From: Candidatus Didemnitutus sp.
GTDB lineage: Bacteria > Verrucomicrobiota > Verrucomicrobiia > Opitutales > Opitutaceae
DNA: 64,000 nt
Assembly: GCA_023701285.1 (NCBI GenBank)
Contig: JAMPXH010000003.1
Location: 1-64,000 of the forward strand
Reading direction: 5' to 3'
The notes beneath the pieces are model-generated. The model did no database searches, was not told the origin of the DNA, and worked only from the letters and a program-made list of their open reading frames with translations. A program made the translations under genes and the position numbers. Below are positions 13,134 to 63,396 of the stretch, piece by piece. Numbering within the stretch: position 1 is the first letter of the stretch; each line of letters starts with the position of its first letter.

Positions 13134-13156
13134 GCCGCTTCGTTTCCCGCTCCGAC

Positions 13157-14386: not shown

Positions 14387-14392
14387 GCCCGC

Positions 14393-17069: not shown

Positions 17070-17081
17070 CCCATTTTCCCC

Positions 17082-24354: not shown

Positions 24355-27033
24355 TCAGTAGGTGAGCGCACGGAAATTACGCACGCGGTGGAAGGTGATG
24401 ATGTTGCCGTTGTGGGCGTCCTTCGCGCGGATGTCGCCGCTGCGCGAAAGGATGACGAGGTCGTCGCCATCGAAGTCCATGCACGCATAGTGCCGGGCCT
24501 GGCGCGTGCCGCCGCCGATGGCGACGACGCCGGCGAAGTTCCAATCGACGAGGTTGCGCGAGAAGTGGAGCACGAGGCGGTGGCGTTCCTCGTTGGGCAG
24601 CGCGTAGCGGTCGGCGGGGAGCAGCTCCGCGCGGATCATGGAATCGGTCGCCTGCGAGCTGAGCAGCCAGTAAAGTTTCTGCTGCGGATCGTAGAGCACA
24701 TGGAATTTCATCTGCCCGCCGGGCAGCGGCAGGAAGAGCTGCGAACGACCGGCCGGCGACTGCTCGAGCAGGCTGAGCATGCTGCCGTCGGGTTGCTCCA
24801 CGACCTTGAGCAACCCGGCGTAGCCGGTGCCGCCGGTGTTGGCGCGCATGAGGAGATGAAAGGTCCGGCCCGTCTCGTCATACCACGCGTGGTCGGGGGC
24901 CATGACCTGCACGACGTTCGTCTCGAGCCAGCCCATCGGGTGGAACTTGCGCGTGCCGCCGACGGGATTCGACGTGGGATAGGCCTGCGTGAAGAACGGC
25001 ACGCCGAAGTGATCCAGCTCGGGAGCGTTTTCGCGGAAGCCCGGGATGATGTCGCGGAACACGATGCGGCTCGACTGCGTCCAGCTCGACGGTTGCAGCA
25101 AGTCGGCGGTCTCGGGCGCGCGCCAGACCACGGGCGCGAAAGTCGAGACGCTCCAAGCGTCGATGTCCTCGTCCTGCCATTCCAAGCCGAGGTAGACGTG
25201 GCCGTCCTTTTTCCAGACGTTCGCCGGCGTCGTCTGCCAGCGCTGGCCGGTCGTCAATTCCACGGCGTCGCTCCACGTCTCGCCCTGATCGGCGGAGACC
25301 GCGATGCGGACGTTGGAATACTGGCCGAGCAGGTAGATCTTGCCGCCCGCCGTGAAGAAGCGCGCCTGCGTGAGGCGGCTGGCGCCGAAATACTCGCGGC
25401 GCACCGTCCACGTGTGGCCGCCGTCGTCGGACGTGAGCACGCGCTGGCTGGGCAGGCCGAGCTCCGCCGTGGGGCCGTTCAAGGTGTAGGACGCGAGCAA
25501 CCGGCCGGAATCGAGCCGCAGGATCGCGGGGTTGAAGAGTTGCACGGTCAGCGGATCGGGCGATTCGCCGACGGCGACGTAGTCGCGCGCGAGCTCGCGC
25601 ACCGGACCGCCGGAACTGGCGACCGTGCCGAACCACACTCCGGTGCGGAACGGCGAGGCGGGCAGGCCCGCGGCGTTATAGAGGGAACGGGCGGGATTGT
25701 TGCGCCACGCATAGCGCACGTAGCGCGGGTCGGCGATCGTGGCGGCAGACAGCCGCACCGTCTCGCCCTCGATCACCGCGTCCGCGGCGACGAACTGCAA
25801 ATCGGCGCCCGCGATCTCGAACTCGGGCACGGGCTGCGTCGCAGCGTGAAGACCCGTCGCGTGGGTGAACCGCACGCGCAACGCGGAGCCTTCGCGGTCG
25901 AGCCCGGCGAAGACCGGGCCGGAATACTCGACCTCGACGCCGTAGTCGCGCGCGAGGGCATTGAGTGCGAGGCGCCGGCCGACGTCCTGCTTGTTCGTCG
26001 GATGGATGTTGTTGTCCTCGCCCAGATCGATGGCGACCGCGACGCCGGTGTTCGGGAGCGTGAGTCCTTGCATCTGCGCCTCGCGCTGGAACGCCCACTG
26101 CATCCCGGTCGGATCGTTCGAGCGGTTCATGTTGGCGAGCTGCACGAAATAGAACGGGAGGTCGCCCTGCTGGAACTTCGCCCGCCACTCGCGGATCATC
26201 GCGGGGAAGAGCTTGCGATACTCGTCGTAGCGCGGCGCGTTCTCCTCGCCCTGATACCAAGTCACGCCCCGCAGCGCGAACGGGAACAGCGGGTGGATCA
26301 TGCCGTTGTAGAGGCCGGTCGACATTTTCTTCGTCACCGAGTCGTCCCAGCGGTCGAACACGGGCGAGAACGCGGGATCGCTCTGGAGATTCTCGAGGCT
26401 CATCCACGCCTCGACCGGCGTGCCGCCCCACGCCGCATCCATCACCGCGACGGGGATGCCGAGCCGCTGGTGCAGCTCGCGGGCGAAATAGTAGGCGACG
26501 GCGGAGAACTTCGGCACGGTCGCGGGCTGACACTCGGCCCAGGTCACGCCGACGGTCTCGGCGGGCGTGAAGCCGATCACCTGCGCCACGGTGGCAAGGC
26601 GGATGAGCGGGTAATTCGCGGCGGCAATCTCGGCCGCCGCATCGTTCGCATCCTCGACCTCCCACTCCATGTTGGACTGGCCGGAACACAGCCACACTTC
26701 GCCCACGAGCACGTTGGTGAGCGTCACGGTGTTGGTGCCGGTCACCGTCAAGTCGCGCGGCGTCGCCGAGGCGGCGAGCGCGGGGAGTTCGACGCGCCAG
26801 CGTCCGTTCGCGTCGGCCGTGGTCGCGATAGTCTGGCCGGCGAAGTCCACGCTGACCGCCTCCGCGGGCGCCGCCGTGCCCCAGACGGGCACGGGCTTGC
26901 CGCGCTGCAGCACCATGTTGTTGCCGAACGGCGAGGCGAGCTGCACGGCCGCGGCCACCGCGCCGACTTCTGTCAGCAAAATCGCGGACAGGAGCAGGGA
27001 ACGGACAGGGAGCCGGAAACGGGGAAACATCAT
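24355..27033 (-). CDS. SASA acetylesterase fused to BNR/sialidase-like propeller
   Basis: This 892-residue secreted bifunctional protein has a signal peptide ([20 protein letters not shown] onward). The SASA half (about residues 30-470) has [17 protein letters not shown] at 118-122 (Ser120) and the late segment [18 protein letters not shown]. The BNR half (about 480-892) starts at [15 protein letters not shown] and has [26 protein letters not shown] and the terminal [15 protein letters not shown]. The same two activities are encoded by separate overlapping genes at 3495-6361, in the opposite order. The fusion suggests that de-acetylation and propeller action occur on the same chain end. Its start overlaps the stop of the DUF3748 gene by four bases. 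Confidence 0.92.
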
Positions 27034-28466
27034 GGCAACAGATCCGCCAGATCCGGCGGCAAGGTGACGGTGAAAATTTGAGCGAAAACAGTGCCGCCTG
27101 CATCAGGCACCGACCGTTGATAGGCGATGTGCCGGCCATCCGGCGAGAAGACGCAGGCCAGCGGCAGCGGGGCCGCAGCGGGCTCGCGGCGCGGCGTCAG
27201 ACGCAGGGTCGCGCCCGTGCGCGCACTCGTCACACAGACGCTGCCGTCCATCGCGTGGGCGATCAGGCGGCCATCGGAGCTCCAGCTGAAGGCAGAGGCG
27301 ATGTCCGCGGGATTGCGCGTGAGCTGGTGCGGTTCGCCGCCGTTCGGCGACACCGTCCAGAGCTGCACCACGCCGGCATCGTCCTTCATCAGGAAGGCGA
27401 TGCGGCTGCCGTCGGGCGAACTCCGCAACCAATGCCGCGGACCCTGCAGGCCGCGCGCCGCGCGTGCCTCGGTGAAAGTCAGTCGTCGCTGCTGCACGCC
27501 GCGCGGCGGCGCGGGCCGGAGAGTCGCCGTCCCTTCGAGCGGCGTCTCGCCGGGTTGCGTGAGATCGTCCGGCAAATCCACGATGAACACCTCGGCGTGC
27601 TCGCGGCCGTCGCCCGCCACGACCGTGCCCTGGAAGGCCAGCGCGTGTCGCTGCGGCGTGCCATCCGCGCGCGTGTAGCCGTCGATGCCGATCCAACCTT
27701 CCTCGCAGGCGCGATTGATCTCGTCGCTGCCCGGCCGCGGCGTGGCCACGGTGCGCGTCACGAGCACGGAGAACCACTCGCCGTCGTGATTGCGCGGGTG
27801 GTTGCGATTCACCGGAACCGGGCCGGCCGGCACCGCGACGCCGACGTTGCGCTGATTCGGCTCGCGCGCGAGCCCGTCAGCCGGCGGGCGCGAAAGGAGC
27901 TCGTCGTCGTAGGTGAAGCTGACCCGCGTGCCGTCGGGGCTGAATTGATGGACGTGCGAACCGCCGCGCAACGCGCCGGGCGCGAAAGGCGGCGCGTAAT
28001 TCGCCGCGTCGAGCGCGTGCCCCGTGCCGTCGCCGCCGAAGTCCACCATCACGCCGCGCCGCCGGCTCGCGCCGTAGCTCCACGTCTCGGTCTCCGGCTC
28101 CGGCCCTTGGATGAAGATCACGCGCGGCTGGACAGGATGCCACGTCACGACGCCGCAATGCGACCCGAGCGGCGCGGTGTAGAGAGTGCGGACGACACCG
28201 GTGGCGACGTTGATCGCCTCGATGCGGGTGCCGGTAAAGTTCTCGGAAACCGCGCGCAAGTCGTAGGCGAGCCACTGCCCGTCGGGCGACCAGACCGCGT
28301 GGTTGGTGAGCACGTGACCCTGCGCGGCCTGCGTGACTTGTCGCTCGACGGCGACCACGGGCAACGCATCGGCGCGCGCCGAGCCCGTCGCCCCAAACGC
28401 GAGCACCGCCGAGGCGAACACCGTGCCGCGCACCCAAGCGGGGGAGTTGTCGCCCGCCGCGTTCAT
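27030..28466 (-). CDS. DUF3748 (YidR-like) TolB-type beta-propeller protein
   Basis: The 478-residue protein has a signal-like N-terminus (about residues 12-33, ending GSARADA). Five WD40/TolB-type blades are visible: AVWSPDGQWLAYD, HQFSPDGTRVSFTYDDE, RSSPDGSRIAFLMKDD, FSWSSDGRLIAHAMDG and CVFSPDGRHIAYQRS. Its layout matches the DUF3748 family that includes E. coli YidR, whose function is not established. The start at 28466 overlaps the upstream hydrolase stop by four bases, and its own stop overlaps the SASA-BNR start, so it is tightly embedded in the glycan operon. A periplasmic binding or lactonase-like role is possible, but no catalytic residues were recognised. Confidence 0.82.
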   Translation of the reverse strand: MNAAGDNSPAWVRGTVFASAVLAFGATGSARADALPVVAVERQVTQAAQGHVLTNHAVWSPDGQWLAYDLRAVSENFTGTRIEAINVATGVVRTLYTAPLGSHCGVVTWHPVQPRVIFIQGPEPETETWSYGASRRRGVMVDFGGDGTGHALDAANYAPPFAPGALRGGSHVHQFSPDGTRVSFTYDDELLSRPPADGLAREPNQRNVGVAVPAGPVPVNRNHPRNHDGEWFSVLVTRTVATPRPGSDEINRACEEGWIGIDGYTRADGTPQRHALAFQGTVVAGDGREHAEVFIVDLPDDLTQPGETPLEGTATLRPAPPRGVQQRRLTFTEARAARGLQGPRHWLRSSPDGSRIAFLMKDDAGVVQLWTVSPNGGEPHQLTRNPADIASAFSWSSDGRLIAHAMDGSVCVTSARTGATLRLTPRREPAAAPLPLACVFSPDGRHIAYQRSVPDAGGTVFAQIFTVTLPPDLADLLP

Positions 28467-29410
28467 CGACCGCCTTTCGCTGCGGCCAGGCCGAGGTGCC
28501 GACATAGGAAGTCCACGCGGGCGGAGTTGGCGTTGCCGCCCTCGTCCTTGTGCCGGAAGATACATTCGAGGCCGAGCGCCTGCATGCGCTGCTGGAGAAG
28601 GAGGCCGAGATTCGGATGGTGGATGCCCGTGCCCGCACGGCTGCCCGCCGGCACCGCCGCACGCGGCTCGGAATAATACGCGAACACCGGCGGATCGTCG
28701 GCCGTGAGATGCGTGAGCGGCGCCGAGGCGGTGTAGAGCGCGTGCGCCTTGGGCGTGTCCAATTCGTCCTCCGACAATCCGTGCAGCGAGGCGAACACCG
28801 CATGCCGCGCGGCGCTCTCGCCGGCCAGCTCGCGGATCACGCGGCGGTCGTAGGTCGGCTGCGCGCCGGCAACGACGACGCACGAGACCCGCGTCGACTG
28901 GCGTGCGACGGGATCGTCGGACCCGGCTTCGGCCAAGTCGTCGTGGAACGCGATCCACAGCGCCATCGCCGCGCCCGCCGAGCTGCCGCCCAACGCCACG
29001 CGCGCCAGATCGATATTCCACTCGGCCGCCCGGGAACGGGCAAATTGCAACGCCCGCGCGCCGTCGCGGTAGTGCGCCGGGAAGACGACTTCCGGCGAAA
29101 AGCGATAATTGGCCGACGCGACCGAGATGCCGGTCTTCAGGCAGGCATCCAACACGCTGCGCGGGAGATTTTCCTTCCGGCCGGTGACGAACCCGCCGCC
29201 GTGAAAATAGATCAGCAGCGGCGCCGGAGCCGGCGTGTGTGCGATCCACACATCCATGACGTGCCGTTCATGCGAGCCGTAGGCGACGTTGGCGAAGTCG
29301 GGCGGCGGCAATTTCGACGCGCCGGTCTCGCGATCCTGCGCTGCGACGGAAATCAGCGCCCCAAGGAAAGTCCCGATCAGGAAGCTCGCGTAGGCGAACC
29401 GGCGTTTCAT
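28463..29410 (-). CDS. Secreted alpha/beta hydrolase (carbohydrate esterase-like)
   Basis: The 315-residue hydrolase has a signal peptide (MKRRFAYASFLIGTFLGALI to SVAAQ). The oxyanion-hole motif HGGG is at residues 70-73 and the nucleophile elbow GGSSAG is at 141-146 (Ser144). Asp239 or Asp240 and a histidine in GTGIHHPN (264-265) could complete the triad. This layout fits BD-FAE-like and HSL-like esterases, which often remove acetyl or feruloyl groups from plant polysaccharides. It overlaps both neighbours by four bases (ATGA), so it is translationally coupled to the GH32-like and DUF3748 genes. Another ester substrate cannot be excluded. Confidence 0.87.
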   Translation of the reverse strand: MKRRFAYASFLIGTFLGALISVAAQDRETGASKLPPPDFANVAYGSHERHVMDVWIAHTPAPAPLLIYFHGGGFVTGRKENLPRSVLDACLKTGISVASANYRFSPEVVFPAHYRDGARALQFARSRAAEWNIDLARVALGGSSAGAAMALWIAFHDDLAEAGSDDPVARQSTRVSCVVVAGAQPTYDRRVIRELAGESAARHAVFASLHGLSEDELDTPKAHALYTASAPLTHLTADDPPVFAYYSEPRAAVPAGSRAGTGIHHPNLGLLLQQRMQALGLECIFRHKDEGGNANSARVDFLCRHLGLAAAKGGR

Positions 29411-31611
29411 GGCTGCGCCTCCTTCCAGGCTGAGTTGAGTTCGTAGCCGGCCAGAGCGAGCAACTCGCACGCGCCGCGCTCAGTCGCGAGCGTGACGCCG
29501 CGCACGCCGTCGCGTGCCACGTGCGCGAGTGGCAGATAGACGAGTCCGTCCTGCGCGAAAACCTCCACGGTCGTGCGATCCGCAATCACGCGCAACCGCA
29601 GCCCGCCGGCCTCCAAGAGGACGGGAGCGACCACCTTGCCACACTGCAACTCGGAGCGCGCCGCGTCGTAAGTGATCGCACAGCCGAGCACGTCCAGCGT
29701 CACGCGGGCATCCGGTCCCGGACGCAGCGTGAGTTCGATATCGAGCGGCGCATCGGCCACAGTCAGAGTGGTTTTCTCGCCCGCCGCCAAAGTCCGGGCC
29801 GGGAGCGCAAACGCGGCGCCACGCAGCTGCGCAAACTCGGGCACGGGCCACGAGGCGACACGCCAACCGGCGGACGTCTCGCGCAATGAAAGCTCCAGCG
29901 GCACGCTCAGGCATTGCATGAACGGCATGCCCGGCGCCGGCGCGCGGAGAAAGTGAATCTGCACGACGCGGCCGGAGGGCTCGTCGTTGAAGGTCTGCCC
30001 CGCGTAGGCGCGGCCGAAAAACGCCGGCAGCTTCACCGCCTCGGCGTGGAACGCGGCGCCGTCGAAGGCGCCGAGCGCGTATTCGCCGTTGGCGCCCCAG
30101 AGCACCCATTTCCGTTCGCCGGGGCGGCCCGGCACGGGCAACGGGAAGATGTCCGGACACTCGTAGAGGAAGCGGTCCGGCCCGAGCCCGCCGGCAAATT
30201 CGCTGGCGAGCGTCCAGTCGCGCAGGTTGGGCGACGTGTAGAATTGCACGGTGTGGCGCGGCAACTCCTCGCCGGCCGCGGTTTTCTCCGGCGGGCTGAC
30301 GTAGAGCGCCATGACCCAGCGTGCGGTCGGCTCATGCCAGAAGACCTTGGGGTCGCGGTTGAGCGACGTGACGTTGGGCAGGACGGGATTGCCGGCGAAC
30401 TTGGTGAAGGTGCGACCGTCCGTGCTGTAAGCGAGGCATTGCACGCGCGGGGCGTTGGCCGCGGTGTAAATGAGCACGAGCGGCGGCTCGCCGTCGCGGC
30501 CGAAGCCGCTGGTGTTGTGCCAGTCGACGACGGCGCTGCCGCTATACATCATGCCCATCGCATCGGGGCGCAGCGCCTCGCCGAGTTCGGTCCAGTGGAT
30601 GAGATCGCGGCTGACGGCGTGGCCCCAGTGCTTGTTGGCCGAGCGCACGCCGACCGGGTTGTGCTGGAAGAAGAGGTGATACTCGCCGCGGTAGAAGACG
30701 AGACCGTTGGGATCGTTGATGTAGCCGCGCCGTGGCGTGAAATGCACCTGCGGGCGCAGTGGCTCGCGGTAGAGTTGCGCGGTGTCGGGCCGTTCGTCGC
30801 GCAGTTGAAAACCGGGCAGAGCCGCCAGCGCAGTCGGCAAGGCCTCGGCGCGCAGCTCCAACGTCCGGCCGCGCCAGGGGCCGAGGTCGAGCGGGGCGAA
30901 CCACGCGGGCTCGCCGGCAGCGAGCTCGACGTCGAAGGTGTTCACCAGTTCGCCACCGACGCGCAGCTCGATGCGCCGCAGCGCCGCGCCGGGCTGGACC
31001 GGCACCCAGAGCCAGCGGCCGTCGACGGGCCAGGTGCGGACGACTTCGCGCAAACCGGCCGGAGCATCCGTGAACACGATGTGATCGACGGTGATGTGCC
31101 CCCACCCGCTCGTCGCGCTGTCGACGATTTCGAGTTGCGCGCGGCGACCGGCGAATTCGGCGACGTTCCAGCCGTCGGCCTGCAATTCCTCGCGACCGCC
31201 CTTCTGCGTGTTCGGCCCGACCGCGGTGCGAACCACGCGCCCGTCGACGAGGAGGTTGAGACAAGTCTTCTGCGGCCAGCCGCCACCGCCGATCCGGAAC
31301 GCGATGAAGCGGCGGTCGATGACGAATTCCGGCGAGCGCAGGCGGCCCGTGGCCTTGTCGCGCTGCGCCGCCGTGTAGGTGTTGACCAAGCCGCGCCCCG
31401 CGAAACCGGTGACCGGACGCTGCCCGCCGTTGGCGCCGCGCGAGGGGCCGGCCGCAAAGGCATCGCCCTCCGCTTGCCAGCCGGCGAAATCGGCGCCCTC
31501 GAAATCCGCGAACACCACGTCGGCGCGGGCCTCGCCAGCGGCGAGCCCAACCGGTGCCAGCAGCCCAAGCAGGGCCGCGCAGAGCGGCAACGTGGCGCGG
31601 CGGCGGTTCAT
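29407..31611 (-). CDS. GH32-type glycoside hydrolase (levanase/inulinase/invertase family)
   Basis: This 734-residue secreted enzyme has a signal peptide (MNRRRATLPLCAALLGLLAP to GLAAG). An N-terminal beta-domain of about 250 residues follows (DFEGADFAGWQAEGDAF, TYTAAQRDKATGRLRSPEF), as in levanase-type proteins. All three GH32 active-site motifs are present: NDPNG with nucleophile Asp300, RDPK with stabiliser Asp420, and YECPD with acid/base Glu484. A C-terminal beta-sandwich follows (about 590-734; DRTTVEVFAQDG). The family hydrolyses beta-fructofuranosides. No fructose-specific transporter or fructokinase is nearby, so fructan use is not confirmed by context. It overlaps both neighbouring genes by four bases. 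Confidence 0.93.
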   Translation of the reverse strand: MNRRRATLPLCAALLGLLAPVGLAAGEARADVVFADFEGADFAGWQAEGDAFAAGPSRGANGGQRPVTGFAGRGLVNTYTAAQRDKATGRLRSPEFVIDRRFIAFRIGGGGWPQKTCLNLLVDGRVVRTAVGPNTQKGGREELQADGWNVAEFAGRRAQLEIVDSATSGWGHITVDHIVFTDAPAGLREVVRTWPVDGRWLWVPVQPGAALRRIELRVGGELVNTFDVELAAGEPAWFAPLDLGPWRGRTLELRAEALPTALAALPGFQLRDERPDTAQLYREPLRPQVHFTPRRGYINDPNGLVFYRGEYHLFFQHNPVGVRSANKHWGHAVSRDLIHWTELGEALRPDAMGMMYSGSAVVDWHNTSGFGRDGEPPLVLIYTAANAPRVQCLAYSTDGRTFTKFAGNPVLPNVTSLNRDPKVFWHEPTARWVMALYVSPPEKTAAGEELPRHTVQFYTSPNLRDWTLASEFAGGLGPDRFLYECPDIFPLPVPGRPGERKWVLWGANGEYALGAFDGAAFHAEAVKLPAFFGRAYAGQTFNDEPSGRVVQIHFLRAPAPGMPFMQCLSVPLELSLRETSAGWRVASWPVPEFAQLRGAAFALPARTLAAGEKTTLTVADAPLDIELTLRPGPDARVTLDVLGCAITYDAARSELQCGKVVAPVLLEAGGLRLRVIADRTTVEVFAQDGLVYLPLAHVARDGVRGVTLATERGACELLALAGYELNSAWKEAQP

Positions 31612-32886: not shown

Positions 32887-34389
32887 TTATTTCACCTGTT
32901 CGTCGTTCCGGCGCGGGAGGAACATCGTCAGGAACAGGCCGACGAGCATGATCGCTGCCGTGCCGAAGACGATGATGAGGAACCCGTGGAACGGGCTGCG
33001 GAAGGCCTGCGGCAGCGAAGTGGCGTTGGACGAAAGCGTCATCCACAGGATGGTGAGCACGCCCGCGGTCACGCCGCCGACCGCCGCGCGATTACCCGTG
33101 CGCGGGGAGAGGAAACCGAGCAGGAAGAGGCCGAGCGTGCCGCCGCCGAAGATGCCGGCGAGCGTCCACCACGCATCGAGCGCGCTGCGCACCTTCGTCA
33201 TGGCGAGCGCGATGATCGTGCCGAGCACGCCGATCGCGATGGTCGTGACATAGAGCACGCGCATGGATTGCTTCTCCGTGGCGGAGCGGTTGAAGAAGCG
33301 CTTGTAGTAATCGGTGAGGACGATCGTGGCCGAGGAGTTGAGGCTGCCCGAGACGGTGCTCATGGCGGCGGCGAACACGGCGGCGATCAGCAGGCCGGTG
33401 ATGCCCGGGGGCAGACCTGTGACCATGAAATACGGGAAGACGGAGTCCGAGCGCGCCGGGTCGCGATACATCTCGGGCAACAGGTCGGGTTGCGCGGTGT
33501 AGTAGGCGAAGAGCGCGGTGCCGATGAAGAAGAAGACGGCGGACAGCGGCAGGTAGAGCAGGCCGCCGATCCAGACGCTCTTGCGGGCCTCGGCGTCGGA
33601 CTTGGCCGTGTGGTAGCGCTGCACGTAGCTCTGATCGATGCCGAAGTTCTGCAGGTTGATCACCAGGCTGTAGACGAGCACGACCCAGAAGGTGTTGGAG
33701 GTGAGATCGAGCCCGAATTCGCCGAGCGAGAATTTATTGTGCTCCGCCGCGATGCGGAACATCTGCGACGGCCCCTCGGGCAGGCCGAGCACGAGCAGCG
33801 CGGCGCAGAGCAGCGCGCCGCCGACGAGCACGACGGTCTGGATGGCATCAGTCCAGATGACGGCGAGGATGCCGCCGACGAAGGTGTAGAGCGTGACGGA
33901 GATGCCGGTCGCGATGATGATCCAGCGGATGTCCCAGCCGAGGAGCACGTTCATCGGCAGCGCCATGAGATACATGACGGCGCCGGTGCGCGCGAGCTGC
34001 GTAAGCAGGTAGCAGGCGCTGGCGTAGATGCGCGCCCACTTGCCGAAGCGCTCCTCGAGGTGCACGTAGGCGGAGATGTGGCCGCCGTTGCGGTAGAAGG
34101 GCAGGAACCATTTCACCGCGATCCACGTGGCGAGCGGCAGCGCGAGGGAGAAGACGAAGGGATTCCAGTTGGTCGCGAAGGCCTTGCCCGGCAGCGCGAG
34201 GAAACTGATGCTGCTGACGTAGGTCGCGAGGATCGACAGGCCGGTGAGCCAGCCCGGCATGCTGCGCTCGGCGGCGGTGTAGCCCTCGACGGTCCGGCTG
34301 CCGCGGTGCACGAGGAGGCCGATGGCCATCGTCGCGAGGAAATACACGCCGAGCACGAGCCCGTCGAGAAAGGTGAAATGAGTTTCCAT
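32887..34389 (-). CDS. Sodium:solute symporter (SSS family)
   Basis: The 500-residue inner-membrane transporter has about 13 hydrophobic helices and the SSS layout: an N-terminal [37 protein letters not shown] (about residues 37-56), [16 protein letters not shown] in the central loop, and [20 protein letters not shown] near the sodium site. Family members import sugars, sialic acid, amino acids or organic acids with Na+. Placed next to a NanA-like lyase, sialic acid or a 2-keto-3-deoxy sugar acid is the likely cargo. The ATG at 34389 is separated from the lyase stop by a strong hairpin, which may set its expression relative to upstream genes. Confidence 0.9.
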
Positions 34390-34454: not shown

Positions 34455-35411
34455 TCAAAGGACCGGCAGACCCCAGGCGCGGAACTGCGCCTGGAAATCG
34501 GCCACGATCTTGCGATACATCGTCGCAGAGTCGGCGGACAGCACCGTCTTCGGCGCGCCGGGATCGAAGCCGCGGGCCTCGACGCCGCAGGCGACGTTGA
34601 GCGGGAACTTCATCTGGTCGACGACCTGGCCGACCTCGACCATGCGCTTCGCGGGCAACGTGACGTCGCCGGGACGGCCTTCGCGGCAGATGCGGTAGAT
34701 CTCGACCATGAGCTCGGGCACGATGTTGACCAGGCCGCCGATGGCGCCGGCCGCACCGAAGCCGAAGACCTCCGGCAGGCGCGTGTCCGAGCCGGAGAAG
34801 ACGGAGAAGTTCTTCTGGCGGCCGAGCGCGATGAGTTCGTGGTGATACTGGAACTCGCCGCCGCTCTGCTTGATGCCGGCCATGTTGGCGCGGTCGGCGA
34901 AGGCCGAGACGGTCTCGATGCCGATGCGGTTGCCGGTGAGCTCGGGGAAATTGTAGAGATAGAACGGCAGGTCGACGCCGTCGGCCGCGCGGAGGAAGAA
35001 CTCGAGCATGTCGGCCTGCGAGACGGGATAAAAGCTGGGCGGCATGAGCGAGGCGCCGACGGCGCCGAGGCGGATGGCGGTGCGGCCGAGCGAGACGACC
35101 TCGTCGAGGCGGATGGAGCTGAGGTTGGCGATGACGGGGAGCGGCGCGGCGAGCTCGATGATCGCGGCCAGCACCTCCTCGCGCTCGCGCAGGCTCATGC
35201 GGGCGAACTCGCCGGTGCTGCCCAGCGCGAGCACGCCGTGGATGCCGGTCGTCTTCAGCCAGCCGAGATGGCGGGCGAGCGCGTCGCGCTTGAGCTTGCC
35301 GGCGGCGTCGGTCGGCACCCAGAGGGCCGCCAACACGCCGGAGCGCAGGGCCGCCGGGGCGGCCGCCTTGGATTCAGTTTCGATCGCGGGATGAAGTCGC
35401 GCTGTTTGCAT
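34455..35411 (-). CDS. N-acetylneuraminate lyase-like aldolase (DapA/NanA family)
   Basis: The 318-residue cytoplasmic class I aldolase has GSTGEF at residues 64-69, the Tyr153 motif YNFPE, and the Schiff-base lysine Lys181 in AGIKQSGGEF. These are the canonical positions for NanA and DHDPS enzymes, unlike the altered motifs of the paralogue at 14393. Candidate reactions are sialic acid cleavage to ManNAc and pyruvate, or cleavage of 2-keto-3-deoxygluconate or a related keto acid. No nanE, nanK or nagAB genes are in the window, which weakens the sialic-acid reading. The first 20 residues extend beyond the core fold, and the start codon lies inside the end of the FG-GAP gene (38-bp overlap). 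Confidence 0.87.
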   Translation of the reverse strand: MQTARLHPAIETESKAAAPAALRSGVLAALWVPTDAAGKLKRDALARHLGWLKTTGIHGVLALGSTGEFARMSLREREEVLAAIIELAAPLPVIANLSSIRLDEVVSLGRTAIRLGAVGASLMPPSFYPVSQADMLEFFLRAADGVDLPFYLYNFPELTGNRIGIETVSAFADRANMAGIKQSGGEFQYHHELIALGRQKNFSVFSGSDTRLPEVFGFGAAGAIGGLVNIVPELMVEIYRICREGRPGDVTLPAKRMVEVGQVVDQMKFPLNVACGVEARGFDPGAPKTVLSADSATMYRKIVADFQAQFRAWGLPVL

Positions 35412-37398
35412 GAGAGTTGATCAGGTGATAAAAGAAACCGTCCTCGGCGCCGACGAGCAGGTCGGGGCGGCCGTCCGCATCCCAGTCGACGATCGCGGGC
35501 GTGGTGCTGTGACCGGCGAGCTTGGTGCCGTCGACGGGACCGAGGTCCTCGAAGAGCCATTCGCCGGGCTGCGTGCCGATGTTGCGGAGGAAGTTCACGT
35601 TCACGCTGTTCACCAGCAGGTCGACGCGGCCGTCCTGGTCCCAGTCGACGAAACAATACGTGCGGCGGCCGCTCTTGCCGGCGGCGCCGTTGTTGAGGCG
35701 GAGGAGACCGTCGCCGCCGTCCTGCGCGACGTGCTTCGAGTCGAACGCGGAAGGCGTGCCGGGCTTCATGCGGAAGACGCGCTGGCCGGGCAGCGTCACG
35801 CGGCGGCCGTCGCGCTCGACGCGCCGGAACCACGCGAGATAGCCCTCGTGGTCGACGGTGATGAGGTCGTCGAGACCGTCGCGATCGAGGTCGTAAACGT
35901 GGGGCGAGCAGCGCCATTGCACGACGAGGTCGCGCGCGGCGGGGCTCCACCAATTCCACGCGGGCTTGGGCGCGGCGCCCTCCCACTCCACCTCGACGGG
36001 TTGCGCCGGGGCGAGTTGCGGCGCGGTGCGCGTGCCGACGTTGCGGTGCCAGACGATCTGGCCGAGGATGGAACCAACGACGACGTCGGGCAGGCCGTCG
36101 CCGTCCCAGTCGCCGACGCCGATGTTGGTGTAGCCCCACTTCGACTCGGCCGGGCCCTGGATGGAGCCGTTGTAGCCGGCCATGATGCGGATCGGCCGGC
36201 CGGCGGCGGTGAGTGCCTGCGGCTCGGCCCAGCGCGGCGGCGTGCCGCCGAGGTTGCGGATGAAGGCGAGTTCGCCGGCGGCGTTGCCGGTGAGGATGTC
36301 GACGCGGCCGTCGCCGTCCCAATCGACGCTGACGGGCGAGGTGAGCACGCCGAACTTCACGTGCTCGGCCTGCTGGCGGAAGAAGAGCGGCTCGCGGAAA
36401 CGCGGCTGGTCGTCGACGATCTGGCCGGTGTGCTCGAGCAGCGCGACGCGGCCGTCCTCCTGGGCGACGACGAGGTCGAGCCAGCCGTCGGCGTTCCAGT
36501 CGTAGGCGGTGACGATGATCATCTCGAGCGGCATCGTGAGGACGCCGCCGGCGCCGCGGAGGCGCTGGCCGGGGCCGTAGCTGGGCGCGGTGCGCGTGCC
36601 GACGTTGGGGAAGAACGTGAGACCATCGACGAACTCGCCGCAGATGAGGTCGAGTTTGCCGGTCTGGCGGAAATCGCCGAACACGGGCGAGGGCGTGCCG
36701 TAGACGTCGATGTCGCGGCCGTCGGCCTGCAGGCGTTGGGCGGCGGCGTAGACGGGCTTGGCGTTGGTGCCAGTGTTGCGCTGGAGATAGACGAAGCCGT
36801 GGAGCGGACCGTTGGTCCAGCGGCCGTTGGCGTCGTAGGCGTTGTCCCAGCCGTAATCGGTCCAGTCGCCGACGCCGGTGATGGCATCGAGCAGGCCGTC
36901 GCCGTCGTAGTCGACGTAGCTGACCTGGTTGCCACGGATGCGTCCGCTGGTGGCGTGGATTTTTTTGCCGTCGAGCGGGATCTTGGTGCGCTTCTCGAGG
37001 CCCGTGCGGAGGAAGTCGGGGTGCTCGAAGCCCGGCGTGGTGACGCGTAGGCCCTGCGGCGTGTAGGACGGCGTGACGTCGACGCGGCCGTCGCTCAGGC
37101 GCACGCCCTTCGCCATGATGGGCGCGCCGGTGCGCGGGTCGCGCGCGCCGGTGTTCTCGAAATAATAGACGCCGCGATGAGGAGAGGCGGCCGCGACCAT
37201 GATCAGGTCGGGCCGCCCATCCTCATTGCGATCGCATGGCACCGGGTATCCCCATAGCCCGACGCCAAGATCGGTGACCAGCGACGCATCGCCGTGGTCG
37301 ACCCGCTGGAAGCGGGCCGGAAGGGTCGAGGCGGGCTCGGCGGCGGAAGCCGCCACGGCCGTCAGCGTGAGTCCGAGAGAGAGGCGAAGCGCGCGCAT
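35374..37398 (-). CDS. Secreted FG-GAP/VCBS repeat propeller protein
   Basis: The 674-residue protein has a signal peptide (MRALRLSLGLTLTAVAASAA). Many D-x-D-x-D-G calcium-loop repeats follow: DRNEDGRPDL, DYDGDGLLDA, DWNADGWLDL, DWDGDGRVDI, DWDGDGLPDV, DLDRDGLDDL, DWDQDGRVDL and DWDADGRPDL. These are characteristic of integrin-like FG-GAP propellers. No catalytic motif is seen. The gene directly follows the TonB receptor (12-bp gap), the position that SusD-type glycan-binding lipoproteins occupy in Bacteroidetes, so it may capture substrate for the receptor. There is no lipobox, so it is likely periplasmic or surface-associated by contacts. Its end overlaps the lyase gene by 38 bp. Confidence 0.88.
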   Translation of the reverse strand: MRALRLSLGLTLTAVAASAAEPASTLPARFQRVDHGDASLVTDLGVGLWGYPVPCDRNEDGRPDLIMVAAASPHRGVYYFENTGARDPRTGAPIMAKGVRLSDGRVDVTPSYTPQGLRVTTPGFEHPDFLRTGLEKRTKIPLDGKKIHATSGRIRGNQVSYVDYDGDGLLDAITGVGDWTDYGWDNAYDANGRWTNGPLHGFVYLQRNTGTNAKPVYAAAQRLQADGRDIDVYGTPSPVFGDFRQTGKLDLICGEFVDGLTFFPNVGTRTAPSYGPGQRLRGAGGVLTMPLEMIIVTAYDWNADGWLDLVVAQEDGRVALLEHTGQIVDDQPRFREPLFFRQQAEHVKFGVLTSPVSVDWDGDGRVDILTGNAAGELAFIRNLGGTPPRWAEPQALTAAGRPIRIMAGYNGSIQGPAESKWGYTNIGVGDWDGDGLPDVVVGSILGQIVWHRNVGTRTAPQLAPAQPVEVEWEGAAPKPAWNWWSPAARDLVVQWRCSPHVYDLDRDGLDDLITVDHEGYLAWFRRVERDGRRVTLPGQRVFRMKPGTPSAFDSKHVAQDGGDGLLRLNNGAAGKSGRRTYCFVDWDQDGRVDLLVNSVNVNFLRNIGTQPGEWLFEDLGPVDGTKLAGHSTTPAIVDWDADGRPDLLVGAEDGFFYHLINSHANSATSSRDRN

Positions 37399-37410: not shown

Positions 37411-40400
37411 TCAGAAGCGGCCGGAGACGCCGAAGGTGACGGACATGGCGTTGTAGACGTGGCGGTCGAAGCGATCGCCCTCGGCGCCCTTGCGGAACCA
37501 CTCCTGCGGCTGGTTGAGCGCGTTGTTGAAGCTCACGAAGACGGTCGCGTAGCGCTGGAACGCGTAGGAGACCGTGGAGTTGGCGACCCAGCGGCTGCTG
37601 CGGTAGATGCGGCGCATCGGATCGCTCGAGTAGGTGTCGAGGTAGTCGCTGTTGTAGTTGGCGGCGACGTCGACGGTGAACTTGCGGTAACGGAACTTGA
37701 AACCGGCGTTGCCGGAGCGCGGCACGAAGTCGGCGACTTCGCCGTTCTGGCCGTCGTCGTAATTGCCCTCGGTCTCGAGCTGCGTGTAGTTCGCGTAGAG
37801 GCTGAGGCCGCGGAGGATGCCGGGCAGGAAGGTGAGCTGGTGCTGGTAGCCGAGCTCGAAGCCCTCGACCGTGGCGCGACCGCCGTTGAGCTTGGTGCGC
37901 AGCTGGAAGCCGGCGAAATCCGGCCCGAGCACGTCGCCCGCGTCGCCGGTGTCCTCGGTGTAGATGAAGTCGCTGATCTCCTTGCGGAAGGCGCCGGCCG
38001 AGAACACGCCGTAGGGCTTGAAGTAATATTCGGCCGTGAAGTCGTAGTTGCGGCTGTATTGGGCCTTCAGGTCCGGATTGTTGAGCGTGACGAAGGAGAA
38101 GTAAGTGCCATCCGAGCTCGCACCGGAGTCGCGGCCGGGGGCGATGTCGGTGAGGTTCGGCCGACCCATGCTGGTCGAGTAGCTGGCGCGGAAGATGAGG
38201 CGGTCGAGCGGCTCATACTTGAGGTGCAGGCCGGGGAAATAGTCCGTGTAGCTGCGCGAGTAGCGGGTCGGACGGTTGTATTTGGCCTCGAGCGCGGCGA
38301 GATCCGTAGAATACGACAGATCGGGCGCGAGGACGTTCTGCTCGTAACCGAAGGCGTTGGTGCGGGTGCGCTCGACGCGGACGCCGCCGAGGGCCTGCAG
38401 CTTGCCGAAGACGAAGGTCGCCTGGAGGTAGCCGGCATCGACGCGCTCCTTGACGATCTTGGTGCCGTTGTAGGTGGCGTCGTAGTTGTAATCCAAGTCC
38501 GTGCCCCAGTCGGCGGGATTGGCCAGGATGTCGGCGGTGATGAGCGGCACGGAGAGCATGGGATACTGCTGGCGCTGCGTGCCCCAGTAGGTCTGGCGGC
38601 CGATGTCCTGGAACTTCGTGACGTCGGTCTTGGTGTAGTAGTAGTCGCGCTCGTTGAAGATGGCATCGACCTGCTGCTTGCGGATGTTGACGCCGGCCTT
38701 GAGCTGGACGGGGACGGTGGTGTCGAGCGAGCGGGCGAGATCGAGGTTGCCGCTGGCGATCTTGGTGTCGCGGATGCGCTGGCGGGAGCGGTAGTGCAGG
38801 CGCGAGTCGAGGTTGCTGTTGCTGGAGCCCGAAGCGCCGCCGTAGTTGACCAGATCGAGCATCGAGGCGCCCTGCGTCTGGGTGATGGTCGGCATCGTGG
38901 GATCGACGGTGCCGTCGTAGGTGAAGGCGGTGCCGGTGGTGCTGCTGGTGCTGCCGGCGGTCTTCAGCTCGGTGTAGGCGCCGCCGGTGCCGGTCTCGGG
39001 CGTGTCGTCCATGTTCACCTTCGTCTGCGAGAGGTTGAGGCCGCCGGTGATCATCAGGTCGCCCGCGCGGTGCTCGCCGCCGAATTGGAGGCGACGGTCG
39101 CGTTGGTCGAAGGTGTTGATCGTGGAGTTGAGCTGGCTCCGGCCGCCGCTGCGCAGCTGGACGAAGCTCGGCGAGAACGGGACGCCGTTGGCGAGGCGCG
39201 TGCCGTAGCTCAGGATGGTGCCGTCGGGGTTGTAGGTCTCCGTCTGGCGCGAGAAGAAGAAGCGCTGCTGGTAGATGTATTGGCCGTTCTCGATGGCGTC
39301 GTTGACGATGCCGGTCAGCCAGAAGCGGGTGTCGTCGGAGACCTTGAACTCGAGGCGGAGATTGGCAGAGGTCTGGACACGGTTGTTGTAGAGGTCGCGC
39401 ATCTTGACCTCATACGGGTAGGTGTTCTGCCAGTAGAAGGGGCGGTTGGTGTTGCCCTGGTTGGGAAGCGCCGCAGTGGAGGAGGCGTAGGAATAGAGGT
39501 TCTGGATCGAGTAGGCGCTGTTGGCGTTCTCGCTGTAGAAGCCCTTGAGGGAGACGCCGAGGTTGCGGTGGCCGCCGAGGACGCTGTAGACGCCTTGGTA
39601 ACCGAGGTTGAGCAAGGGATGGAGCGGGTGTTTCTCGGCCATCGGCGTGCGGTCGACGAAATCGGGCGTCCACTTGCCGCTGACGCGGAAGTCGAAACGG
39701 TGATCCTCCTTCATGCGCAGCGGGCTGCGGGACTTGAAGTTCACGGCGCCGCCGAGACCTTCGGCGTCCATGTCGGGCGTCTGCGCCTTGGTGACTTCGA
39801 TCTCCTCGAAGAGCGCGCCGGAGATGGAGTTCATGCGGAAATCGCGGTTCAGGCCGCCGGAGCTCGACATCTTGTCGCCGTCGATGGCGACGTTGTTGCT
39901 GCCCGGCTGGAAGCCGCGGATGGAGACGCCCGTGACGCTGCCCTCTTCATCGAGGCGCGGGGCAACGCCCGGCATGCGCACGAGCAGCTCGCCGGCGTTG
40001 TCGTTCGGGAGGATGCCCAGCGCGTCGAGCGCGAGCACGTTCTTCACGTTCTGCGCGTTCTTTTGGGATTGGATTGCGGCGGCGTTGCCCTCGCGCTCGG
40101 AGACGACGGTGAACTCAGCCAGCTCGACCACTTCGCTGTCCAATTCGATGCGGACGATCGTGGTCTCGCCCGGCTTGACCTCGACGGTTTCGGAGTCGGT
40201 CTGCAAGCCGGTGTAAGTGGAGGTCAGGTTCTGGGTGCCCGACGGGACGTTGGTGAGTTGGAAGCGACCGAGTTCATCGGTGACGACCTGCTGGTTGGTG
40301 CCTTCCAGCCGGACCCGGGCGCCGGCCAGGACCTCGCCCGTGAAGCGATTGATCAACAAGCCGCTGATCGTGCCTTCCGCCGGTGCGGCGGCGGTCGATT

Positions 40401-40494
40401 GCGCGAACAAGGCCGGTGCCAGGAGCGCCAAGGCTACACAGAGGGTGGAGAACCGGCAGCAACGCCGGAGGGCGGAACGGGTCGGGGTGTGCAT
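37411..40494 (-). CDS. TonB-dependent receptor with N-terminal carboxypeptidase-like domain
   Basis: This 1027-residue outer-membrane importer has a signal peptide (about residues 10-32, ending APALFAQ). A CarboxypepD_reg-like beta-sandwich follows at about 40-120 (GTISGLLINRFTGEVLAGAR). The plug is at about 135-270, with NAGELLVRMPGVAPR and VTGVSIRGFQPGSNNVAIDG. The barrel ends in an aromatic beta-signal (AMSVTFGVSGRF). It is about 290 residues longer than the receptor at 10917, so the two probably take different ligands. It is the first gene of the leftward 13-gene run. A promoter with an embedded LacI-type operator lies 43-72 bp upstream. The ATG at 40494 opens the signal peptide. Confidence 0.94.
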   Translation of the reverse strand: MHTPTRSALRRCCRFSTLCVALALLAPALFAQSTAAAPAEGTISGLLINRFTGEVLAGARVRLEGTNQQVVTDELGRFQLTNVPSGTQNLTSTYTGLQTDSETVEVKPGETTIVRIELDSEVVELAEFTVVSEREGNAAAIQSQKNAQNVKNVLALDALGILPNDNAGELLVRMPGVAPRLDEEGSVTGVSIRGFQPGSNNVAIDGDKMSSSGGLNRDFRMNSISGALFEEIEVTKAQTPDMDAEGLGGAVNFKSRSPLRMKEDHRFDFRVSGKWTPDFVDRTPMAEKHPLHPLLNLGYQGVYSVLGGHRNLGVSLKGFYSENANSAYSIQNLYSYASSTAALPNQGNTNRPFYWQNTYPYEVKMRDLYNNRVQTSANLRLEFKVSDDTRFWLTGIVNDAIENGQYIYQQRFFFSRQTETYNPDGTILSYGTRLANGVPFSPSFVQLRSGGRSQLNSTINTFDQRDRRLQFGGEHRAGDLMITGGLNLSQTKVNMDDTPETGTGGAYTELKTAGSTSSTTGTAFTYDGTVDPTMPTITQTQGASMLDLVNYGGASGSSNSNLDSRLHYRSRQRIRDTKIASGNLDLARSLDTTVPVQLKAGVNIRKQQVDAIFNERDYYYTKTDVTKFQDIGRQTYWGTQRQQYPMLSVPLITADILANPADWGTDLDYNYDATYNGTKIVKERVDAGYLQATFVFGKLQALGGVRVERTRTNAFGYEQNVLAPDLSYSTDLAALEAKYNRPTRYSRSYTDYFPGLHLKYEPLDRLIFRASYSTSMGRPNLTDIAPGRDSGASSDGTYFSFVTLNNPDLKAQYSRNYDFTAEYYFKPYGVFSAGAFRKEISDFIYTEDTGDAGDVLGPDFAGFQLRTKLNGGRATVEGFELGYQHQLTFLPGILRGLSLYANYTQLETEGNYDDGQNGEVADFVPRSGNAGFKFRYRKFTVDVAANYNSDYLDTYSSDPMRRIYRSSRWVANSTVSYAFQRYATVFVSFNNALNQPQEWFRKGAEGDRFDRHVYNAMSVTFGVSGRF

Positions 40495-40536
40495 GAAGTG
40501 AAGGGGGCGGAAAGCAGTCGAAACAACAGCGCGATG

Positions 40537-40566
40537 GTTAAAGCTAAATGGTTTTAGCATTGTCAA
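40537..40566 (-). promoter_or_regulatory. Promoter with LacI-type operator filling the spacer
   Basis: Reading leftward, TTGACA (40566-40561) matches the consensus -35 exactly. TTTAAC (40542-40537) is a plausible -10 at 18-bp spacing. The spacer is occupied by GCTAAATGGTTTTAGC (40543-40558), whose 6-bp arms are perfectly inverted around TGGT. A repressor bound there would block RNA polymerase. Transcription would start about 30 bp before the TonB ATG at 40494. Confidence 0.7.
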
Positions 40567-40693
40567 GGCCTTTTCCCTCATTCCTTGCGTAGAATCCACG
40601 ATCGCGGACCGCGACGCCCCGTCCTCCGAAGCGTCGCCGGGCAATCCCGCCGCGACGCCAATTTCGCCCAGCGCGCGCAGCGAGTCAACCGCA

Positions 40694-40734: not shown

Positions 40735-43700
40735 TCAAGGTGTCCCGGCAAGCGAGCGCGCCCGGTAGAAACGCCGGTCGCCGGGCGGGATCGCCGGCTC
40801 CGTATAGGTTTCCCCGCCGGCGCCCACCGTGCCGGTGGCGACCGTCTCCCATGTCACCAGATCGCTCGAGCGTTCGAGCGCGTAGGCCAGGCCCGCCGTG
40901 CCCGTGACGGCGAATTGCATGCGTCCATCCGGTGTCAACGCAAGGTCGGTGAGGTCGAGTCGCGACGCGGCCGGCGCATCCACCGTGAGCACGCCCTGCG
41001 CATCCACGAGATACCCGCCCTCCTGCGCCGGCGTGAGCACCGCCGTGCCATCGACCACGTCGAGATGATAGCGCGCTCCGGCCGTCAGGTTGAAAAGCCG
41101 CAGCTTTGCCCCCCGCATGCGATCGAGCGGGAAGGCGATCGGGCCCGCCGGGGCAGCGCCATCGGCGGCGGCGGAAAAAAGCACGATCTCGTCGCGCAAC
41201 ATCCGCGGGATGCGCGCCCCGATGACACCGAGCCCTTCGACCGCGGTCGCCAGTTGCACGGCGGGATCCGTCTGCAAGCGCGGGTGCAACACGGTCACGA
41301 ACACGTGGTCGAGCGCCTCGTCGGCGGGTTCGAGTTCCAGCCGCCATTCGCCGTAGGGTTGCGGATCGAAATCGCCGGTCGGCCGCGGCTGCGGCTCGTC
41401 GGGGCTCCAGTGCCAATCGACGTTCGTGCCGAAGACCCAATGGCTCTTCTGGCCGCGCCCGCCGACCTTGCGCACGTTGCGCTGCTGCGGATGGAGGAAT
41501 TGGAAGACGAGATGCCCCGTGCCCGCGCTCGCCTCCGCCACGCTGCCGTTGGCGTAGAGCGTCTCACCGGGACTGAGTGCCGCGCCGGCGCCGGCGCCGG
41601 CGACCGTGGGCTCGTTGAGCGTGTGGAAAAGGAGCTTCGTGTTCGCGCCGCTGAACTGCGGCTGCGTGACGCCGACGCGGTCGACGATGACGATTTTCTC
41701 GTCGGTCGAGGCGCCAGGCTGGTCGGGATCGCGCAGGTAGAGGAATTCGCGCACGAAGCGTGTCACCTTCGCCGTGTTGCCCGCGAGCAGCGTGTCCTGC
41801 GCCTGGTGGTAGAGCGTGCTGTTGTAGGCACGCGTGGCATCGCCCACGGCGTAGGTGAACTCGGGCGTGTCCGCAAAACGCGTGATGCGACCGCGCCGGT
41901 AGGCCTGGTAGTTGGCCTCGTAGTAATCGATCGTCGTCGGCGAGCGGCTGGCCGGCGCGAACGTGCGCTGCCCGCCGTCGTTGAGAACGGCATCCGGGCG
42001 CGCGGAGGAAAAATCCTCGGTCGGATTGTAGACGACGAGGGTGTTGTGCGCGATGGTGCGCACGTAGTAGTCGACGTCGTGGAACGAGAGGCCCTCGCCG
42101 CTGTAGACGCCGCTGTCGATGAGCAGGTCCCCACCCTTCCAGAGCGTGAAACTGTTCTGGTCGAAGTGCTGGTGATACGAGAAGTGGTCGCCCGACTGGA
42201 ACAGCAGGTGCGTGGTGCCAGCCTCGTCGTCGAGGGCGCCGCGAGGCCAGCCGGAGCGGAGGAAGACCGTGCCGGTGCCCGCCGCGTGCACGGTGCGCGT
42301 GACCGGAGCCGCGGCCGGCCGCGCCGCGTCGAACCAAATGAACTCATCCGCCGCGACGAAGTTGAGCACGGTGTTCGCCGGCAGCGCGGCGAGCGTCGCC
42401 TGCAACTCGGCGGCGTGCGGCGCATCGGGGAACTGCTCGCCGAGCACGAGGCCGATGACGCGCGCGTAGTTCTGGATGCTGTGGCGGAAGCGCTCCGCAT
42501 CGCCGATCGACGGATAGATGCGATACGGCCGGCCGTATTCGTAGGCGATGCCGGGCCACGTCTGCATGAGCAGCGTGCCGAAGCGCTCGCGGAACCACGG
42601 CGTGCTGCGGAACAGGTCCTCGCCGGTGGCGTGCTTCCAAGCCGCCAGGGAGAGCACCTTCGGATAATTCGCGATCCAGTCGTAGATCGTGCCCTCCGGC
42701 CAGTTGCCGCCGGCGGCGATGCGGTCGTGCAAGGGCGCGTCGATCGCCACCCAGCGGTCGTCGCGGAACTTCGTCATCGCCGCCAGCGCCGCGGGCGAAT
42801 CGCCCCACAGCGCGAGACCGGTGAGCGCCCACGAAAGCGACCAGCGCGGCCAGTAATTGCCCCAGCCGGGCAAGTCGTAGAGCTTTTCCGGCACCGCGAT
42901 CCACGCCTCGAACCACGCGATGAATTGCGCGCGTTGCTCCGGCGTGAGCCGCGGGTGGCACCAATCGTAGATCAGCGCCAGATCGGCGGCCTTCGTGCTG
43001 TTGTTGTTCGTGTCCGCGAGCCGGACGAGCGCGGCGGCGATGGCCTGGTCGGCGTAATGCGCCTGGCCGGTGACGAGGTAGGCGAGCGCCTTGTTGCGCA
43101 TCTCGCCGCCGCTGGTGTTGGCGTTGTTCAACACGAGCTGCCAGCGCGGGTCGTTCGCGGCGGCGCGCGCCTGCAACGCGGCGAGCTTCTGCGGCGTCAG
43201 ATAAAGGCGCGGGCGGCCCGTGGCCACGTTCCAGAGCCGCGCCCGCACGCGGTCCGTGGCGGATTCGGCCTGCCCGTTCGTGACCGTGAGCTCGAACTCC
43301 CAATCGCCCGCCACATCCGGCGCAAACGTCGCGCCCGCCTCCGTGGCGACCAGCGCGCCGGACGCAAACGCGGAACCGTAGGCCGCGCGCACGATGCGCC
43401 ACGCGTAAGTGAGCGCCGCGCTGTTGCCGCCGGGATGGTCGCCGCTCGCGATGCCATCGAGCGCGAGCGTCTGGCCGGGCACCCAGTCGTAGCGCGCCAC
43501 ATCCGCACCCGCCTCGGCCCGCGGCGTGTCGGGATTGTGCACGATGACGAGGCGCGGACGCAACGCGGCATCCCCGGCATACTGGCTTGAGTGGAACGTG
43601 CGCTGATCGGGGTTGTTGACCTGATAACCTGTGAGGTCGCGGAGCATGACGCCGTGGTTCGGCGCCGTGCCGCGCACCCAGGCCGCGACGAGCGCGGTGA

Positions 43701-59270: not shown

Positions 59271-63392
<4,122 letters not shown>

Positions 63393-63396
<4 letters not shown>

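Follow-up and report, generated by a model that had tools for sequence, protein, structure and literature searches.

Lyases of the DHDPS/NAL superfamily split sugar acids into pyruvate and an aldehyde: Neu5Ac gives ManNAc, KDN mannose, KDG glyceraldehyde and Kdo D-arabinose, and of these four substrates only Kdo yields a pentose. Kdo is present in nearly every Gram-negative outer membrane. Kdo aldolase (EC 4.1.2.23) is an activity known as an enzyme without a sequence, and to our knowledge there is no sequence of it to compare with. Its reaction, from Kdo to D-arabinose and pyruvate, has been described (PMC4412817), and Kdo, which is also found in plant rhamnogalacturonan II (RG-II), is cleaved by E. 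coli NanA and human NPL according to PMC13220900. The E. coli NAL accepts D-arabinose at 1.2% of the ManNAc rate, as reported in PMC4016182, where the NAL sugar-binding motif is given as G[FYPV]DE, with its Glu binding O8 and O9 of Neu5Ac. Among the papers covered by our literature search, none dealt with genes for Kdo catabolism.

The locus described here resembles these systems in part. Its lyase, lyA, has the superfamily, the catalytic Lys and Tyr and the GSTGE loop in common with NanA, the class I aldolase that is the E. coli NAL (28% identity), but it lacks the GxDE sugar-binding motif, falls into a separate clade and has other neighbours. YagE, a 2-keto-3-deoxygluconate/galactonate aldolase of the same superfamily, is among the best solved matches of lyA (95 bits, 25.9% identity), yet it carries His at position 193, where lyA carries Arg. 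The reaction we propose for lyA is the one attributed to Kdo aldolase in PMC4412817. According to PMC12307932, the D-arabinose/D-ribulose routes of DarK, encoded in a locus with fucose isomerase, and of RblK of Citrobacter rodentium rely on an FGGY D-ribulokinase as proposed here; in our case, by contrast, the kinase is accompanied by a lyase for 2-keto-3-deoxy acids and by genes of glycan breakdown. We suggest that the operon serves the uptake and catabolism of a 2-keto-3-deoxy sugar acid, which is not sialic acid but most likely Kdo, a reading that we favour tentatively, at a little short of an even chance. What can be read from the sequence in this proposal is which genes are present and in what order, the pattern of residues and the linkage.

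Two catabolic modules in the window

The window, by which we mean the whole stretch of DNA analysed, covers 64 kb out of a 77 kb contig (C35) of Candidatus Didemnitutus sp.; the assembly comprises 4.02 Mb in 220 contigs, with a completeness of 95.4%. Gene calling and Pfam scans place two catabolic modules in it, one on the plus strand (10917-18323) and one on the minus strand, running from 40644 down to 21557. The latter is an operon of 11 genes, given here in their order below the gene that precedes them:

40735..44247, minus strand: heparinase II (PL21)-like protein, with a gap of 90 bases to the operon downstream; 98 bits to 2fuq
37411..40644, minus strand: TonB-dependent receptor (TBDT2), first gene of the operon; TIGR01782 366 bits, cut-off 310; family in 14/43 lyA loci
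35374..37398, minus strand: FG-GAP repeat protein, upstream of lyA; PF13517; family in 22/43 lyA loci
34455..35411, minus strand: lyA, class I aldolase of the DHDPS/NAL superfamily, in a separate clade; PF00701 157.4 bits; clade support 100/100
32887..34389, minus strand: sodium:solute symporter (SSS); nearest solved relative 5nv9, 238 bits
31608..32876, minus strand: BNR4 propeller with a signal-peptide-like start and a sialidase fold; model pLDDT 86, structure match 3h71
29407..31611, minus strand: GH32 protein, 734 aa; PF00251 201 bits; NDPNG, RDP and YECPD motifs
28463..29410, minus strand: alpha/beta hydrolase of BD-FAE/esterase type; PF20434 81.8 bits
27030..28466, minus strand: DUF3748 propeller; PF12566 and structure model
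24355..27033, minus strand: SASA acetylesterase domain fused to a BNR1/2-type propeller; PF03629 70.3 bits; BNR_2 23 bits, under cut-off
22661..24343, minus strand: FGGY pentulose kinase, predicted D-ribulokinase; TIGR01315 690.7 bits, cut-off 408.7
21557..22615, minus strand: LacI-type regulator, last gene of the operon; PF00356 and PF13377; family in 13/43 lyA loci

From receptor to LacI, the ten gaps span -38 to 65 bases and take the value -4 four times; because the operon is so tightly packed, the lyase and the kinase are probably on shared transcripts. The fusion protein is 58% identical to a BNR2-family protein of one related locus (L013). A preliminary description had read the NanA-like lyase, the symporter, the sialidase-type propellers and the acetylesterase as signs of sialic-acid use; all four were found by the Pfam scans, and the uronate-type lyase it mentioned corresponds to the heparinase II relative at 40735-44247. 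Outside the two modules, the regions 44596-52997 and 59271-63903 hold, between them, a pair of large hybrid histidine kinases with multiple PAS domains and a methylase of Eco57I type that adjoins a T5orf172/ResIII protein.

The plus-strand module consists of the following:

10917..18323, plus strand: KDG module with TonB receptor, BNR_2 propeller, lyB, KDPG aldolase, KDG-kinase-like PfkB and MFS
14393-15355, plus strand: lyB, DHDPS-family protein with Gln at the catalytic Tyr137 position
15352-15990, plus strand: KDPG aldolase; 192.8 bits
15987-17069, plus strand: PfkB/KDG-kinase-like gene, below every curated cut-off listed

We considered lyB as a second NAL-type aldolase and rejected this, as it has Gln in place of Tyr137 and a changed loop; its reaction may be dehydratase-like. 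The KDG genes named in the preliminary description are thus present, as a KDPG aldolase and a PfkB/KDG-kinase-like gene, but they belong to a module separate from the lyase operon. Could the operon nevertheless be part of a general uronate route that feeds them? We regard this as highly improbable. Both genes do lie within 20 kb, a PL21-like protein stands upstream of the operon and one relative's locus (L071) contains a chondroitinase-B-family gene. However, the KDG genes lie on the opposite strand and have a TonB receptor and transporter of their own, and relatives of both the KDPG aldolase and the PfkB gene occur near the lyase in 1/43 loci (L013); on these grounds we rejected a single pathway of KDG genes and lyase.

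The lyase forms a clade without the NAL sugar-binding motif

The lyA frame is open for 318 aa and overlaps the upstream FG-GAP gene by 38 bases; the start preferred by the gene caller, at 35336, gives 293 aa. PF00701 places the protein in the DHDPS superfamily, and the Schiff-base Lys and catalytic Tyr are present. It stays below the NAL equivalog cut-offs (NF003164, 96 of 281 bits; TIGR00683, 86 of 382), below that for KDG aldolase (NF040954, 87 of 390) and below that for DapA (TIGR00674, 124 of 206).

Residues were compared across 46 clade sequences: 44 from the fetched loci, the window's own and a paralogue on contig C123. In NanA numbering, Lys165 and Tyr137 are unchanged in all 46, and the GSTGE loop is largely kept, with Ser47 and Gly49 in 46/46, Thr48 in 44/46 and Glu50 in 41/46. 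The sugar-binding site, on the other hand, reads G-S-D-T in lyA and departs from the NAL motif G[FYPV]DE: Glu192 is replaced in every member (Thr 44, Val 1, Cys 1), and the Ser208 position is Gly in 46/46. The loss of this tail-binding Glu would suit a substrate one carbon shorter than Neu5Ac.

Residue 193, Arg211 in window numbering, is Arg in all 46 sequences. A second carboxylate could be bound by this invariant Arg, which would suggest a diacid, for example DHA. It underlies a different reading of the operon, in which the lyase acts on another 2-keto-3-deoxy acid, either a diacid (for instance the DHA of RG-II, gripped by the Arg) or a short acid (for instance KDG), and the kinase handles a pentulose released from another part of the glycan. 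That the nearest solved relatives of lyA include the KDG aldolase YagE also speaks for this reading; taken with the neighbourhood evidence below, we judge it rather unlikely.

The lyase tree has 33 rows, including 22 of the 44 locus sequences, set against NanA, YagE, DapA and other family members. The 24 lyA-clade sequences in it form a group with support 100/100; because the branches outside this clade are long, the outer order is unsure. Among the relatives found in named genomes, eight of nine come from Verrucomicrobiota (several Opitutaceae or Opitutus MAGs; 55-70% identity), and the ninth is a Rokubacteriota protein at 29%. The C123 paralogue (G000:C123:1-16000, L026) is 75-77% identical to lyA and has another setting, with an FGE-sulfatase-BNR fusion, a TonB receptor, SSS, nucleoside hydrolase, PfkB, PhyH and xylose-isomerase-like genes.

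The sialic-acid gene set in the genome and its relatives

That the sialic-acid set is incomplete, as the preliminary description stated, holds for the window; in the whole genome the set is incomplete but not empty. A search of the full assembly returned no match for nanE (PF04131; 8/14 control genomes were positive) and, for nagA (TIGR00221), no match above the 225.65-bit cut-off, the five matches obtained being weak (21-26 bits). The absence of nagB, by contrast, did not extend beyond the window: one copy, over cut-off, lies on another contig (C62:9249-9941). Next to it is the only GlcNAc 2-epimerase (AGE)-family gene (C62:10132-11139), which reaches 347.5 bits on the N-acylglucosamine 2-epimerase model, under its 600-bit cut-off. 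Both are part of a second 'sialic-like' cluster (G000:C62:2386-12011, L025) that contains an SSS symporter with Tyr in place of the SiaT arginine, a BNR_2 protein, a GDSL esterase, a 446 aa protein, NagB fused to a PIG-L deacetylase and the AGE gene, with an HpcH/HpaI aldolase where NanA would be expected. The idea of a genome without any amino-sugar route was rejected, as C62 carries AGE, NagB-PIG-L and the HpcH/HpaI aldolase.

This leaves the reading of a divergent sialic acid operon, with lyA as the NAL and ManNAc processed by the C62 epimerase and NagB-PIG-L, which we consider improbable. It has in its favour the NAL-superfamily lyase, a symporter closest to 5nv9, the sialidase-fold propeller, the SASA esterase domain, the C62 AGE and NagB genes with the scores given above, and the promiscuity of E. 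coli NanA itself (according to PMC13220900). Against it stand, beyond the low NAL model scores of lyA and the Glu missing in 46/46 clade members, the neighbours: searches with E. coli NanE and NanK and with the AGE and NagB-PIG-L proteins of this genome found no relative (E 1e-8 or better) at any of the 43 lyase loci, which cover 5.5-19.9 kb each, an absence that covers only what was seen at some loci, because these stop at contig ends. The doubt about sialic acid voiced in the preliminary description thus gained support from both motif and neighbourhood. None of the genome's five DHDPS-family proteins has GxDE at the NAL sugar-binding site, which reads G-S-D-T in lyA, G-A-D-T on C123, G-M-D-D on C13, G-L-G-A on C90 and G-W-A-V in lyB. 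In the 200 family genomes, nanE is over cut-off in two lyase genomes (counting the 48 among the matches listed) and in one of the others; in the former two, G002 and G051, nanE and lyase are on different contigs or 44 kb apart.

What does a sialic acid locus look like in this family? One genome (G037:C20, L130) encodes a separate NanA-like protein with a GVDE motif, 33% identical to E. coli NanA, one gene from AGE and NagB-PIG-L; in the tree it groups with E. coli NanA, outside the lyA clade, with moderate support and long branches. By these features, L130 is likely a true sialic acid locus, and its arrangement suggests a model for such loci in the family.

The transport and exported proteins also bear on the sialic acid reading. 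The closest solved symporter, 5nv9, is presumably the sialic acid symporter SiaT. Its Ser60, Thr63 and Arg135, which we take to be the carboxylate-binding residues, are kept in the window symporter as Ser59, Ser62 and Arg134, whereas Thr58 and Gln82 are replaced by Tyr (Tyr57) and Leu (Leu82). The BNR4 model (pLDDT 86) matches GH33 sialidases over residues 28-410 with Z ~30, and 3h71 with Z 31.4 and an rmsd of 3.3 over 318 aligned residues, consistent with a sialidase propeller fold; the recurring BNR_2 family matches sialidases by profile (best 8.5e-15). Because 0/21 BNR4 members have an Arg in the ten columns around the FRIP arginine site, as placed by a weak profile alignment, 'sialidase-like' is for these propellers a description of the fold only.

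Distribution and genomic partners of the lyase

Lyase genomes were counted by hand at a best E < 1e-60 among the matches listed, and by this measure the clade occurs in 48/200 family genomes; its full-length members are at least 53% identical, other matches ~34% or less, again among the matches listed. A 91-residue piece in G183 (48% identity, E 1.8e-21) was left out of the count. The 43 loci represent 40 matches in 39/48 lyase genomes plus three named loci, with the window as the 40th genome and the lyase regions of eight genomes left out; their genes were called with a homology-seeded gene caller. Cross-genome counts were taken genome by genome, uncorrected for relatedness.

The DUF3748 propeller is the partner most strongly associated with lyA among the partners counted (26/48 lyase genomes vs 5/152 others, p 8e-15, among the matches listed). 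On the same basis, the FGGY kinase is present in 18/48 lyase genomes vs 20/152 others (Fisher p 5e-4), and the fucose-isomerase-like protein in 40/48 vs 97/152 (p 0.012), a weak link. Of the 18 genomes with both kinase and lyase, among the matches listed, 15 have the two 1.1-12.1 kb apart, and in the remaining three, which are drafts, they are on different contigs.

At the 43 loci the commonest neighbour families are FG-GAP (22), the BNR_2 propeller (22), MFS (18) and SSS (16), followed by DUF3748 (15), the TBDT2-type receptor (14), FGGY (13) and LacI (13). The order receptor-lyase-DUF3748-propeller-MFS-kinase is repeated in L016 and L018; L015 and L019, covered from the lyase onward, have the same order over that part. 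In L071, an alcohol dehydrogenase, an SDR and a xylose-isomerase-like barrel follow the lyase in place of the kinase.

The reading of another 2-keto-3-deoxy acid as substrate, with the kinase serving a different sugar, draws on these neighbourhoods too. In L079, L085, L087 and L088 the lyase has a gene for an HpcH/HpaI aldolase in its vicinity, and lyase islands contain genes of two families that we take to belong to RG-II breakdown, apiosidase-like (7 loci) and GH95 (4 loci). Yet it leaves unexplained why the kinase lies within 12.1 kb of the lyase in 15/18 genomes among the matches listed, and why kinase and isomerase form a pair in three lyase islands. As a separate observation, a PhyH oxygenase and a conserved ~830 aa protein without a Pfam match are found near lyA, DUF3748 or FGGY genes in L085, L087 and L118, in the first two with an HpcH/HpaI aldolase between them.

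The pentulose kinase and the fucose-isomerase-like protein

The window kinase scores well above the cut-off of the FGGY pentulose kinase model but does not pass the models for L-ribulokinase, xylulokinase and L-fuculokinase. Among solved structures it matches 3gg4/3l0q best, labelled glycerol or xylulose kinase (689 bits); the ribulokinase 3qdk scores 160. A TCSLV motif, presumably the D-ribulokinase signature, is present in 33/34 kinase homologues including the window's, the exception being in L127.

The isomerase is common in the family (137/200 genomes) and is found in 35/38 kinase genomes vs 102/162 others (p 3.5e-4). The two genes adjoin in G006, G060, G064 and G127; the pairs of G006, G060 and G064 belong to lyase islands, and that of G127 comes without a lyase. 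The G060 isomerase is split in two pieces. The G006 island holds the lyase, MFS, a TonB receptor, two propellers, a GH32-like gene, DUF3748, SASA, the kinase, the fucose-isomerase-like gene, LacI and FG-GAP. In the window's own genome the isomerase lies on contig C8 and is 72% identical to the G006 copy. Its resemblance to FucI is distant: 22.8% over 246 residues of E. coli FucI (E 0.018), with PF02952 at 33-36 bits (33.3 against a cut-off of 29.3, just over) and PF07881 at 21.6 (under 28). The G006 copy has 26 bits on PF02952, under the cut-off, and the L125 copy is under both (26.3 and 22.1). By eye, the C-terminal region aligns in part with the E-D-H region of E. coli FucI, residues that we take to be the metal site. 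D-arabinose is a further substrate of E. coli FucI.

In 20 genomes, counting lyases among the matches listed, the kinase is present and the lyase absent; in all 17 kinase regions fetched from these it lies among other genes. Because of these other settings in lyase-negative genomes, the kinase is not dedicated to the lyase, a point that also favours the reading in which it serves a pentulose from elsewhere in the glycan. An arylsulfatase-like gene is near the kinase in three lyase-negative genomes (L110, L111, L115). Only one of the 17 fetched regions, L122 (G041:C2), has another DHDPS-family lyase close to the kinase; that lyase is 26% identical to NanA and 29% to lyA, and a BNR propeller is nearby.

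A proposed route for Kdo

Returning to Kdo, the route we propose runs as follows. The exported propellers, esterases and GH32 protein would free the acid from a glycan, and the symporter, in which the carboxylate-binding residues of SiaT are kept, would import it. The lyase would then form a Schiff base at Lys181 and split the acid into pyruvate and D-arabinose. The fucose-isomerase-like enzyme, encoded on C8 here and beside the kinase in some relatives, would convert D-arabinose to D-ribulose, and the FGGY kinase would phosphorylate this to D-ribulose-5-phosphate, which would pass to the pentose phosphate pathway. We prefer Kdo because only a D-arabinose product accounts for the lyase having an isomerase and a pentulose kinase next to it. 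Whether lyA represents a new class I aldolase clade that splits Kdo, coupled to a D-ribulokinase and, in the same island of some relatives, to a D-arabinose isomerase, is on balance doubtful, if quite conceivable.

Several observations speak against Kdo. The kinase is missing from 30/48 lyase genomes among the matches listed, the nearest solved kinase is labelled glycerol/xylulose kinase, and the isomerase is only distantly FucI-like. In addition, BNR4 is, as far as the alignment places the site, without the FRIP arginine expected of a carboxylate-gripping enzyme, and the GH32 protein is without an obvious role in the route.

A polymer is a plausible target, given the TonB receptors, secreted propellers and PL21-like protein; plant RG-II, Kdo-rich algal walls and LPS debris are guesses. 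The preliminary description had proposed a uronic or ulosonic acid polymer: an ulosonic acid fits the lyase operon with its kinase and, in relatives, its isomerase, but the KDG genes cited for the proposal are separate. If the Kdo reading is true, Kdo-aldolase activity would be given a gene, with a clade in about a quarter of the family genomes searched (48/200, among the matches listed). Genes automatically annotated as dihydrodipicolinate synthase, N-acetylneuraminate lyase or sialidase would then be misread as sialic acid use in many genomes, and the bacteria so misread may never meet a sialylated host.

DUF3748 and GH32

The DUF3748 model matches 3pe7, a PL22 oligogalacturonate lyase, with Z 26.8, an S9 peptidase with 28.3 and a WD40 propeller with 26.5; with PL22 matching no better than these S9-peptidase and WD40 propellers, we rejected the view that DUF3748 is a proven lyase. 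The GH32 (fructan-type) enzyme inside the operon keeps its motifs, and a GH32-like gene (30%) is also present in the G006 island.
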